Virus record (IMG/VR): IMGVR_UViG_3300042937_000216
Span: 1-64,000 of that record
DNA length: 64,000 bases
Strand: one strand, 5' to 3'
From: a virus
Positions within the stretch are counted from its first letter, which is position 1; each line of letters begins with the position of its first letter. A program made the translations under genes and the position numbers. Shown here in pieces: positions 44,762 to 50,264 of the stretch. The notes under the pieces were generated by a model. It saw only the letters and a program-made list of their open reading frames with translations, was not told the DNA's origin and did no database searches.

Positions 44762-44790
44762 TTGACAGGCTAATAAATAGACTGTATAAT
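44762..44790 (+). promoter_or_regulatory. Consensus sigma70 promoter 2 of the tRNA region
   Basis: Perfect TTGACA (44762-44767), 17 bp, perfect TATAAT (44785-44790) within GACTGTATAATA. The initially transcribed sequence (AGTTTTTATAGTAAGAAATT) is nearly identical to that after the promoter at 49597, so these promoters share a recent origin. Confidence 0.88.
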
Positions 44791-45030: not shown

Positions 45031-45247
45031 GTTTTATGTGTCTCGGAAACGAGGTCCAGGCAAGGCACATTAAAGATAGTATGTTAAACGGGCGGACAAG
45101 TGGATGGCATGTTCTTATGTGAACAGAAAATACTTGTTATAATAAAGTACATTAATTGGCAACTAGGTCCCACGCAATGTGGATTATGTCAGAGGCGAGT
45201 AATTAGTGTGCTTTATTATACGCATTCATATGAGTGCGTTAACAGTT
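45031..45247 (+). ncRNA. Structured non-coding span before the first tRNA
   Basis: About 215 bases with no convincing gene. Hairpins visible: ATGTG/CACAT (45036-45040 with 45066-45070) enclosing CTCG-GAAA-CGAG (45042-45053), CCAC-GCAAT-GTGG near 45170, and a long stem ACGCATTCAT/ATGAGTGCGT (45220-45239, one G-T wobble). The density of clean stems suggests a stable RNA, like RNAs C and D in the T4 tRNA cluster. That is an analogy, not homology. Confidence 0.35.
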
Positions 45248-45328
45248 TGTAGATAGTCCTGTTGGGCCAGGAGCCTAGCCATGCTAGGTCAAGATCGCAA
45301 CTTGTTGGGTTCGATTCCCAGTCTACAA
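45248..45328 (+). tRNA. Aberrant class II-shaped tRNA, anticodon CAT
   Basis: Acceptor TGTAGAT pairs with GTCTACA; T arm TTGGG-TTCGATT-CCCAG is normal. The anticodon stem GCCTA/TAGGT gives loop GCCATGC (CAT, with C instead of T at position 33). A 15-nt variable arm (CAAG...CTTG) is of Leu/Ser/Tyr type, the D arm has a 5-bp stem and lacks the usual loop, and no CCA is encoded. It may be decayed, or a tRNA-like RNA with another role. Confidence 0.5.
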
Positions 45329-45383
45329 TTTAACACGGCTCCTATCTATTGCCTACAGGGATAGCTTAGGAGTTATTTTATAA

Positions 45384-46176: not shown

Positions 46177-46393
46177 AACACTAGCTTTACACTTTGCGCT
46201 TTATCGAAAGTGGGTTATTGCCAATACCATAACGGCAGGGTACACACGATGGTCTAGACCATACCACAAGTCCCATTGCCGGGAGCCTTGAAAGTATCGT
46301 GGGTGTTTTACTGTTTTTAACCACAAAGCAAACAGGCGGACAGGGTAACTACTCAATCTAGGGCCAGGTGGTGCTGGTAGCTAGTCCTTACAC
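46177..46393 (+). ncRNA. Structured non-coding span between tRNA-Gly and tRNA-Ala
   Basis: About 215 bases without a gene. CACTTT/AAAGTG (46190-46212) forms a hairpin, and ATGGTCTAGACCAT (46249-46262) is a perfect 14-bp palindrome. The remainder is GC-richer than the intergenic average. It may be a stable RNA or an eroded tRNA segment. Confidence 0.3.
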
Positions 46394-46716: not shown

Positions 46717-46750
46717 ATTAAGTTGTTCTTTTCAATCAAAGGTGAATACT

Positions 46751-47221
46751 ATGAAAAAACTAGACATAAACCAAGTGCGTGACTTTATTCAAGCACAAAG
46801 TCTAGAAACCAAAGTCTACATTGGTGGTGACAGTCGACGTTTCCGTAAGAACGGACAATGGCATGCTGAATATACCTTGGCTATTGTAGTACACATTGAT
46901 GGGAAACATGGCTGTAAGATCTTTGGTGAAAGTAGTACTGAAGTGGACTACGATCAAAAACGTAGTCGCCCAAGTATGCGCCTAATGAACGAAGTCTACA
47001 AAATTAGTGAACTGTACTTAAAGCTACACGAAGTATTAGAAGACCGTGAAGTTGCTGTACATTTGGACATTAACCCAAACGAACTACATGGCTCAAGCTG
47101 TGTAGTACAACAGGCTATTGGTTATATCCGCGGAACATGTAACGTTATTCCAATGGTTAAACCAAACGCCTGGGCAGCTAGTTATGCGGCTGATCGTTTA
47201 AAAGAAATTATAGCAGCATAA
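46751..47221 (+). CDS. YkuK-family RNase H-like protein
   Basis: 156 aa from the ATG at 46751 (ribosome-binding site AAAGGTG, 8 nt away); an in-frame GTG lies 9 nt upstream. 'VYIGGDSRRF' is the first strand with the catalytic-type Asp, 'YTLAIVVHI' and 'AVHLDINPNE' follow with a second Asp, as in the YkuK/DUF458 RNase H-like group. Its place inside the tRNA array suggests RNA processing, but no member has a well-defined role that I can cite. Alone between tRNA-Ile and tRNA-Gln. Confidence 0.65.
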   Translation: MKKLDINQVRDFIQAQSLETKVYIGGDSRRFRKNGQWHAEYTLAIVVHIDGKHGCKIFGESSTEVDYDQKRSRPSMRLMNEVYKISELYLKLHEVLEDREVAVHLDINPNELHGSSCVVQQAIGYIRGTCNVIPMVKPNAWAASYAADRLKEIIAA

Positions 47222-47303: not shown

Positions 47304-47304
47304 G

Positions 47305-47549
47305 TTTTGTTAGTGTGTGTACAGTAACCGTTATGTGACTATAGATTATACTTAATCCTTCTATAGTGTACCCGATGTCTGTAGCAACATATCTTAGGAT
47401 ATGTCTGTTGGTGAATTAAGTGTAGTCAACGACTAACAAATTTAAACAGTATCGGCCACGCCTCTTAACAATGCGCAACATGGTAAGCTGGATTTACAGC
47501 TAAAACTTGAGGACGCTCAAGGCTTCGGTCTTCCGGTGGGATAACCACC
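47305..47549 (+). ncRNA. Candidate multi-branched structured RNA
   Basis: TTTGTTAGT (47306-47314) pairs with ACTAACAAA (47432-47440) and would close a 135-nt junction holding two perfect 7-bp hairpins: ACTATAG/CTATAGT and ACATATC-TTAG-GATATGT. Downstream are AGCTG/CAGCT (47486-47501), CTTGAG-GACG-CTCAAG (47506-47521), a C(TTCG)G tetraloop at 47523 and GGTGG-GATAA-CCACC (47535-47549). No gene frame is evident. It is probably a stable phage RNA encoded with the tRNAs. Confidence 0.45.
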
Positions 47550-47556
47550 AATCTAT

Positions 47557-47946: not shown

Positions 47947-47955
47947 AATAAAATG

Positions 47956-48019
47956 TTACTGAGCAGTAATATTTGCCGTCAAACCCGGCTAAATCAGTTC
48001 AAATATTACTGAGCAGTAA
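47956..48019. repeat. Duplicated TTACTGAGCAGTAA inside a 12-bp inverted repeat
   Basis: TTACTGAGCAGTAA occurs at 47956-47969 and 48006-48019, exactly 50 bp apart. In addition CAGTAATATTTG (47964-47975) is the perfect complement of CAAATATTACTG (48000-48011), giving a 12-bp stem with a 24-nt loop between tRNA-Arg and tRNA-Gly. Confidence 0.7.
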
Positions 48020-48028
48020 GATTAAAAT

Positions 48029-48459: not shown

Positions 48460-48842
48460 TGGACTTTACCATTGACTCAGAGTACTTAACAGATGTAACA
48501 ATTCGCAAAGAATGGAACACTTATACACAGAATGGTCGCGTACCAACTAATGAAGAACTTATTTTAATTATTCAAGGTAAAGGTGTGTGTTCAACTACAC
48601 ACTCAGAAGACCATCCGGAGTTTGCTAAGTTGCGTGAGCAGTTAGGCGAGTTGGGTTATATTGAGATTCAACGCAGTTGGTGGAATGGAGATAGAGTTCT
48701 AAAGCCGTTCAAACTTAACGGCAGAAAGTTCAAAGAGGGTGATCAGTTTAGTTGTGGTAGTGCAATGGGTAATCATCTTATTGTACGTGCCAAACACCCG
48801 GAATATTATAAGGATGAATACGATGATGAAACCATGGATTGA
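48459..48842 (+). CDS. Hypothetical protein
   Basis: 127 aa. 'NEELILIIQGKGVCSTTHSE' and 'LREQLGELGYIEIQRSWWNG' suggest a small alpha/beta fold; the C-terminus is 'GRKFKEGDQFSCGSAMGNHL'. Not recognised. Coupled on both sides (1-bp overlap before, 20-bp after), so it probably works with the phosphatase that follows. Confidence 0.6.
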   Translation: MDFTIDSEYLTDVTIRKEWNTYTQNGRVPTNEELILIIQGKGVCSTTHSEDHPEFAKLREQLGELGYIEIQRSWWNGDRVLKPFKLNGRKFKEGDQFSCGSAMGNHLIVRAKHPEYYKDEYDDETMD

Positions 48843-49242
48843 AAATATTAGTCTTGATGATGTGCGTAAAGGATATCACTACGACCCAGGTTTCAACAGT
48901 ATGCTAATACAGATTGTAGATCCTGGTACAGAATTCCCAACACCTAAGTATGACTTCCACACTGTACGCCAGTTCTACTTCTTAGATGTAGAAGAAAGCG
49001 ATAGCGAAAAGTTTTACTATGCGGCAGCCATTACCAATGAAGATGCTAAAGGTATTGCTAACGCATTAAAAGAAGCATGGGAACAGAGTATGAACGTAGT
49101 GGTACACTGCCACATGGGTGTAGCACGTAGTGGAGCAGTAGCAGAAGTAGGACAAATGATTGGGTTTAGAGATACAGAGAAATTCCGTGTTCCAAACCTA
49201 ATGGTCAAACACAAGCTAATGCACTATTTAGATTTAGTTTAG
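48823..49242 (+). CDS. Dual-specificity/tyrosine phosphatase
   Basis: 139 aa from the ATG at 48823 (AAGGA 8 nt upstream). The signature 'VVHCHMGVARSG' is a complete HCX5R loop with catalytic C96 and R102. 'FYFLDVEESDSEKF' carries the upstream general-acid Asp region. It should remove phosphate from Tyr/Ser/Thr in proteins, or from nucleotides or RNA 5' ends as some members do. It sits within the tRNA array, one operon with two unknown small proteins; tRNA-Phe begins 4 bp after its stop. Confidence 0.8.
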   Translation: MMKPWIENISLDDVRKGYHYDPGFNSMLIQIVDPGTEFPTPKYDFHTVRQFYFLDVEESDSEKFYYAAAITNEDAKGIANALKEAWEQSMNVVVHCHMGVARSGAVAEVGQMIGFRDTEKFRVPNLMVKHKLMHYLDLV

Positions 49243-49503: not shown

Positions 49504-49591
49504 GGAAGTTACTGAGGTCGGCTCCTCACACAGTCTTGAAAACTGTAGTTACCAGGAATGGTAAATCGTTCGATGCGATTAACTTCCGCCA
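49504..49591 (+). tRNA. tRNA-Ser(TGA)
   Basis: Acceptor GGAAGTT/AACTTCC, anticodon loop CTTGAAA (TGA), long variable arm, discriminator G, CCA encoded. Confidence 0.93.
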
Positions 49592-49745: not shown

Positions 49746-49821
49746 GGGCCGATAACTCACTCGGCGAGAGTACTGTGCTCATAACGCAGAAGGCAGGGAT
49801 CATAACCCTGGCGGCCCACCA
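49746..49821 (+). tRNA. tRNA(CAT), probably Met or Ile2, with an unusual T loop
   Basis: Acceptor GGGCCGA/GCGGCCC (one mismatch), anticodon stem CTGTG/CGCAG with loop CTCATAA (CAT). The T loop is ATCATAA, lacking the TTC start seen in every other tRNA here. C-G pairs at positions 4-69 and 5-68 recall Ile2 tRNAs. CCA encoded. Confidence 0.75.
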
Positions 49822-50006: not shown

Positions 50007-50264
50007 ATGTCAATAATACAAAATTATAATGTAGAAGAACAACTAACCGCCGCAGAAAATCGAGCAATTGAAAAACGTGAAGCAGACGAAATTATCAATA
50101 ATGCTATGAAAGAATTCTTAGCCAGCGGCGGAAAGATACAACAGATTGAGCGGGGAGTTAGCCAGCAAGCAGACGGCGCATCTTATGCAGCCTGGGGAGC
50201 AGCACGCAAAGCAGGTCGCCCAACAACAGATACGACAGCTTCAATAGCAGACCTTAACAAATAA
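50007..50264 (+). CDS. Small conserved phage protein
   Basis: 85 aa. Helical N-terminus 'EEQLTAAENRAIEKREADEI' and a conserved-looking 'FLASGGKIQQIERGVSQQAD' followed by an Ala/Gly/Arg-rich tail. The 'GGKIQxIxRGVS' motif recurs in small proteins of aquatic phages without known function; it resembles a DNA-binding turn. Ribosome-binding site AAGGAAAC. Confidence 0.55.
   Translation: MSIIQNYNVEEQLTAAENRAIEKREADEIINNAMKEFLASGGKIQQIERGVSQQADGASYAAWGAARKAGRPTTDTTASIADLNK

Follow-up and report, generated by a model that had tools for sequence, protein, structure and literature searches.

Allo-tRNAs, as described in the accessible text of PMC7609411, carry many different anticodons and translate in Escherichia coli, and irregular allo-tRNAs occur in polycistrons, some of them left uncharged by the E. 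coli synthetases (PMC7609411; Mukai et al. 2017, via a review); the 8/4 allo-tRNA shape is also treated in the accessible portion of PMC7590224. For tRNA-Sec, the same part of PMC7609411 gives TCA as the usual anticodon and a 6-bp D stem with a 4-nt loop. The tRNAs of phages have in turn been linked to immunity: retron-Eco7 and Septu cut the variable loop of tRNA-Tyr and phage (T5/T6) tRNA-Tyr rescues, for which the authors of PMC13096335 propose a decoy or a supplement role, and in what is accessible of these sources the phage RNAs that counter tRNA-cutting immunity are tRNAs (PMC13096335, PMC11555353). A tRNA shape can also stand at the edge of a larger RNA, as in mascRNA, which in the partial account available is a tRNA-shaped RNA located 3' of MALAT1, a longer RNA that is itself structured. 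mascRNA is not known to encode a CCA.

The tRNA-like element described here lies in a stretch of 64,000 nt (the window) taken from a virus record of 122,452 bases, whose terminase has 55% identity to PA5oct-like Pseudomonas phage terminases. Between 45384 and 49988 ARAGORN finds the window's 26 tRNAs, which together account for all 20 amino acids, and every one of the 26 has U33 and an encoded CCA. The element has a structured leader RNA before it and tRNA-Pro, the first of the ordinary tRNAs, after it. The original prediction had called it the first member of the array, but the leader at 45090-45239 is an RNA-like feature that comes earlier. The features are as follows.

45090-45239, plus strand: conserved, structured leader RNA, four helices with covariation
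45247-45328, plus strand: tRNA-like element, 82 nt, discriminator T45329
45247-45253, plus strand: 5' strand of the acceptor stem, TTGTAGA, 7 bp, fully paired
45257-45272, plus strand: D arm, TCCTG / TTGGGC / CAGGA, 5-bp stem and 6-nt loop with G18 and G19
45273-45289, plus strand: anticodon arm, GCCTA-GCCATGC-TAGGT, with C33 and CAT at 45280-45282
45290-45304, plus strand: variable arm, CAAG-ATCGCAA-CTTG, 4 bp with a 7-nt loop
45305-45321, plus strand: T arm, TTGGG-TTCGATT-CCCAG, found in the sequence and by the descriptor search
45322-45328, plus strand: 3' strand of the acceptor stem, TCTACAA, followed by TTTAAC and no CCA
45337-45374, plus strand: hairpin between the element and tRNA-Pro, folding z -2.66, 1 of 200 shuffles as good
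49504-49591, plus strand: tRNA-Ser(TGA), folding as 8/4, D arm of 5 bp with a GG-containing loop of 6 nt; closest in shape to the element within this phage

In shape, the element appears nearest to the 8/4 allo-tRNAs. T45254 is able to add an eighth acceptor pair with G45321 (8/4 composition), and the two kinds of RNA have in common a 12-bp acceptor branch that can be read as 8/4, a long D stem, a long variable arm, an anticodon unrelated to the shape and a position beside other tRNA-like genes. They differ in that the element belongs to a phage tRNA array and not to bacterial loci, and in having U73, a D loop of 6 nt, C33 and an anticodon loop that can be closed. The long D stem and long variable arm are also reminiscent of tRNA-Sec (RF01852), but the anticodon is CAT and not TCA and the D stem has 5 rather than 6 bp. 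Like the tRNA-Tyr of T5/T6, the element is phage-encoded, sits within a tRNA array and has a tRNA elbow and a long variable arm; unlike it, it is not a tRNA-Tyr, and no defence system is known for its host. It resembles mascRNA in being a tRNA shape 3' of a longer structured RNA with no encoded CCA; the two differ in that mascRNA is an animal nuclear RNA and that 15 of the 21 contigs have a leader unaccompanied by the element.

Most of what the original prediction had read in the element is borne out by the sequence: the observation is real, the acceptor stem and the T arm are both intact, and the long variable arm, 5-bp D stem, C33, CAT anticodon and lack of an encoded CCA are all present. 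The statement that the usual D loop is missing is half right, since the loop is short (6 nt, TTGGGC) but retains G18 and G19, so that D loop and T loop can still meet at the elbow. The claim that none of the 26 neighbours shares these features goes too far: long variable arms occur in 5 of the 26 (Tyr, two Leu and two Ser, 85-90 nt), CAT in three and a possible D helix of at least 5 bp in seven, and tRNA-Ser(TGA) at 49504-49591 carries the identical 5-bp/6-nt D-arm layout. Only C33 and the missing CCA separate the element from all the array tRNAs. As for synthetase identity, position 3-70 is G-C, which excludes the G3:U70 pair of AlaRS, and among the parts read for SerRS and AlaRS identity the variable arm is present and position 73 is T.

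The tRNA shape of the element is more than a chance arrangement. In the window, a descriptor made of a 7-bp acceptor, a 5-bp T stem, the T-loop consensus and set spacing has matches at 21 distinct 3' ends, those of the element and of 20 tRNAs, and it has no match in 60 dinucleotide shuffles. Folding z-scores are -2.5 for the window version, -2.6 for that of contig L003 and -2.3 for that of L015 (equally good folds in 3, 2 and 1 of 200 shuffles), and -0.2 for a fused version found in L005 (84 of 200). Standard tools are less decided. ARAGORN misses the element in the window but calls the L003 version tRNA-Met, and the Rfam tRNA model RF00005 does not list it; the RF00005 miss counts for little, as the 6-kb scan also omits one of the 26 ARAGORN tRNAs, tRNA-Ser(TGA), and another search two of them, tRNA-Ser(TGA) and the tRNA-Met at 49746. 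The Rfam scan of 6 kb matched only 15 T-arm bases of the element, and tmRNA was rejected on such a match (15 nt of the T arm, 12.1 bits, cut-off 47). A 371-base scan with laxer filters gave a full-length match to RF01852 at 30.2 bits, below the 47-bit cut-off. This match signals a tRNA fold and not tRNA-Sec, since at least six other tRNAs of the record outscore the element with the same model (at least nine other tRNA places score 16.8-38.4 bits, tRNA-Ser(TGA) being left out of this count); with a CAT anticodon and a D arm of 5 bp and a 6-nt loop, the identity of tRNA-Sec was set aside. When a profile of the element is scored at every array position the next match is an ordinary tRNA, tRNA-His at 24.3 bits, and since it is ordinary tRNAs that rank next, the element has a tRNA fold.

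In silico, the 8/4 arrangement is favoured over 7/5 (P(8-75)=0.90 against P(59-75)=0.04), 7/5 being also possible, and the 12-bp acceptor/T stack is retained. In the anticodon arm, G32-C38 and C33-G37 are predicted to close the loop, which would leave a CAU triloop on a 7-bp arm, with P(33-37) of 0.99 in the window, 0.87 in L003 and 0.98 in L015. As a control, closure was also predicted for five of the 26 neighbours (Pro, Ala, Ile, Gly-GCC and Ser-GCT) at 0.67-0.80; by these models the closure appears stronger in the element than in its neighbours, which is not proof. The acceptor, a T arm with TTCRA and G18/G19 are as in a cloverleaf, with the exception of the middle of the L015 version, where another fold is preferred and the probability of the D stem is about 0.2; this predicted alternative counts against a rigid cloverleaf. 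A 7-nt anticodon loop with U33 is found in L003, whereas the window, L015 and L005 have C33.

Scans of IMG/VR with two parts of the element returned one and the same set of six contigs, with four distinct element sequences including that of the window, too few for covariation. The leader motif occurs in 22 contigs, and since L007 ends before the site, 21 are informative; these are contigs rather than independent lineages, and the 15 without the element hold nine distinct leaders. The element is thus present in six of the 21 (L002, L003, L004, L005, L006 and L015) and missing at the site in 15, and the leader is directly followed by tRNA-Pro in ten. In two of the 21, L005 and L006, it is broken: the sequence matches that of the window as far as the T loop, where it passes into the 3' end of a tRNA-Asp, which destroys the acceptor. 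The 3' part of the fusion resembles the tRNA-Asp of L009, including its CCA and downstream spacer, and by comparison with the window and L009 the deletion runs from T loop to T loop, with loss of Pro, Tyr and Lys, and also of His when L009 is the comparison. The junction of this inter-T-loop deletion is at GTTCGATTC (L005:10810-10833, and L006), and homology between T loops may be a route of deletion in tRNA arrays. A group I intron or split tRNA was rejected; it had been considered because the mismatched acceptor of L005 might have pointed to a 5' exon further upstream.

The intact versions are very similar to that of the window. L003 differs by one substitution in 82 (C33 to T) and L015 by three, neither with an indel; the L015 changes turn an acceptor A-U into G-U, alter the D loop and turn an anticodon-stem C-G into U-G, so that all four changes fall in loops or preserve a standard pair. 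The surroundings give a measure of this similarity: relative to the window, L003 and L015 each have 8 substitutions in the 150 bases of the leader, 2 and 1 respectively in the 55 of the hairpin, 12 and 11 in the 59-base stretch preceding the leader, where 16 of 67 alignment columns are gaps, and 13 and 12 in tRNA-Pro (11 gap columns of 84). The entire block of leader, element and hairpin is conserved, the element not clearly more so than the rest, so that its similarity may simply reflect exchange of the block. L015 and L063 have the leader inner loop and upstream sequence in common, and only L015 has the element and hairpin before tRNA-Pro. Sequence comparison therefore shows the element as a cassette that has been either gained or lost at this site. 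Random decay in relatives, which the original prediction had named as evidence against it, may apply in part: the 15 of 21 contigs without the element and the two with the fusion could be read that way, while the intact L003 and L015 copies, with their pairs preserved, do not look like long-standing decay.

Beyond this set, a profile of the element run against 34 sources gave its four versions at 96-114 bits and nothing else above 23.7, and against 15 records the next best match was a tRNA-Leu at 25 bits. An exact-pattern search for bacterial homologues gave none in the bacterial genome contigs scanned, and among named phages the element matched six records at E of about 3, none spanning most of the query. 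A recent duplicate of a neighbouring tRNA was rejected as a source, the best of 165 distinct array tRNAs (of 166, the L003 version of the element being set aside) scoring 4.3, while 30 mononucleotide-shuffled elements gave best scores averaging 1.3 with a maximum of 6.1.

The leader preceding the element was aligned from 12 distinct versions, its helices being named after inspection of the sequences. The four helices are paired in 424 of 424 cells, against 30-49% in slid controls, three of their 36 pairs have changed on both sides, and none of 500 shuffles reached the observed values. In L012 and L048 the interior of the long stem is replaced and the stem itself kept, and the double change seen in helix 1 of L048 recurs, against another sequence background, in the leader of L063, which is outside the count of 12. 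The leader might instead act in DNA as an inverted repeat, and no convincing Rfam family match was obtained for it. The hairpin, for its part, is kept without the element in L008 and L019.

The array contains a second RNA of 8/4 shape. The tRNA-Ser(TGA) folds with an 8-bp acceptor and a possible 4-bp T stem and reaches 43.4 bits with RF01852; it is like the element in the distance from the 5' end to the anticodon stem, D-arm layout, 8/4 option and long variable arm, and unlike it in decoding parts that are ordinary (U33, G73 and encoded CCA). The 8/4 form is also found in L015 and L022, and in L008 with one change; L010, L019, L020 and L064 have a tRNA-Ser(TGA) of different sequence, 7/5 in three of the four, with a predicted fold in L010 that is not a cloverleaf. 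Among the records covering both the site and a tRNA-Ser(TGA), both element-bearing versions (window/L022 and L015) and one of five element-free versions (L008) have the 8/4 form, a co-occurrence that is suggestive on far too few cases. A profile of the tRNA ranks the element 20th of 37 matches (12.2 bits) and a profile of the element ranks the tRNA 25th of 42 (12.4 bits), which points to a common shape with no recognisable common sequence; descent of the element from this tRNA was rejected, there being no special kinship in either direction and an alignment score of -5.8. In named phages, tRNA-Ser(TGA) itself gave weak matches alone, in eight records at E of about 9.

Taken by its sequence features, the element is probably an optional tRNA look-alike and not an ordinary tRNA. 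Somewhat short of even confidence, we favour the idea that it is the gene of an accessory tRNA-like RNA of 8/4, class II, allo-tRNA shape which acts outside ordinary decoding, likeliest as a decoy. Starting from an element that keeps the elbow and stack, has an abnormal decoding end and comes and goes as a cassette, we infer that it would be transcribed together with the leader and the array, fold into the 8/4 shape, be trimmed and supplied with CCA by host enzymes, if at all, and work apart from ordinary decoding. U+1 and the lack of an encoded CCA make for a poor substrate of the type of RNase P that reads CCA. We would favour a role in which the RNA engages a tRNA-directed host enzyme, either as a decoy or as a spare substrate; a defence nuclease recognising the elbow or the variable arm would be an example. 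A decoy role is possible by analogy, because retron-Eco7 and Septu cut the variable loop of tRNA-Tyr and phage tRNA-Tyr rescues from them.

The main rival, which we hold to be rather unlikely, is early decay, in which an acquired class II tRNA would have lost CCA and U33 and now be under deletion from the clade. A decayed tRNA had been among the options of the original prediction, and it would fit the contigs in which the element is missing (15 of the 21), the broken fusions with tRNA-Asp in L005 and L006, C33, the ARAGORN miss and the failure of RF00005 to list the element, although the last weighs little when two ARAGORN tRNAs are omitted likewise. Versions that differ by one and three changes, without indels and with loops or pairs preserved, are unlike long-standing decay, both long helices are complete, and none of the 165 array tRNAs is a recognisable source. 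Decoding is the other way in which the element could be a tRNA after all. A host SerRS or other synthetase might charge it through the long variable arm, and it would then read AUG and mis-insert or recode, as a translating allo-tRNA. The possible 8/4 pairing and the length of both the D stem and the variable arm fit such a molecule, the L003 version has U33 and is called tRNA-Met, and the phage's own tRNA-Ser(TGA) combines a matching D arm and 8/4 fold with U33, G73 and CCA; this 8/4 tRNA-Ser in the same array weakens the decoy reading and strengthens that of a translating allo-tRNA, since it shows that an odd body is no proof of non-decoding, and together with the L003 version it leaves decoding by the element some probability. 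Nevertheless we consider it quite unlikely: C33 is found in three of the four versions, the anticodon loop can be closed, no CCA is encoded, special profile kinship with the 8/4 tRNA-Ser is lacking (20th of 37, 25th of 42), and mis-reading of AUG would cost dearly. We take U73 and U1-A72 to make up no recognisable identity set.

A further arrangement, unlikely in our view, would combine two 8/4 allo-tRNA-shaped RNAs in one array, a decoding tRNA-Ser and a non-decoding mimic whose CAU anticodon arm is closed, retained as an exchangeable cassette that absorbs or blocks a tRNA-directed enzyme of the host. Weaker than all of these is a processing signal, in which the tRNA shape would let RNase P free the 3' end of the leader, much as mascRNA does for MALAT1. 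RNase P uses the acceptor/T stack and the elbow. Both are retained in the element, which lies directly behind the covarying leader, but it has neither G+1 nor RCCA, and tRNA-Pro, directly behind the leader in ten of the 21 contigs, would give the same cut, which makes this explanation improbable. For the primer role that had also been put forward, no supporting evidence was found.

If the decoy reading is true, a non-decoding mimic kept by a phage would be a different tool against tRNA-cutting immunity from the tRNAs described so far, and the presence in a phage of allo-type tRNAs of 8/4 form would extend the known occurrence of this shape. Judged by titles and the beginnings of abstracts, none of the matches listed in our literature search, which covers subscription papers thinly, concerns a phage allo-tRNA or a non-decoding phage tRNA mimic.

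Several other features of the array and its borders were observed. A perfect sigma-70 consensus promoter (TTGACA-17-TATAAT, 44762-44790) precedes a small conserved ORF and the leader, promoter-like sites in the region being at chance level (three against 2.7 expected). Two long spacers within the array, at 46177-46393 and 47304-47556, are approximately 69-92% conserved among relatives, and a weak match to abiF RNA lies at 47456-47483 (30.6 bits, cut-off 37). The 82-nt spacer between tRNA-Arg and tRNA-Gly (47947-48028), in which TTACTGAGCAGTAA occurs twice, is 79-94% conserved among relatives. Between tRNA-Pro and the tRNA that follows it, where the window has just 7 bases, L008 (5513-5808) and L048 have an extra conserved spacer that looks structured. 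For the ORFs within the array at 46742-47221 and 48739-49242, the matches were to an RNase H-like protein (PF04308) and, weakly and below the cut-off, to a dual-specificity phosphatase. The small protein encoded directly past the array, at 50007-50264, contains an RNA-polymerase-binding domain of the SutA type (PF20661, 37.7 bits, cut-off 29.3).
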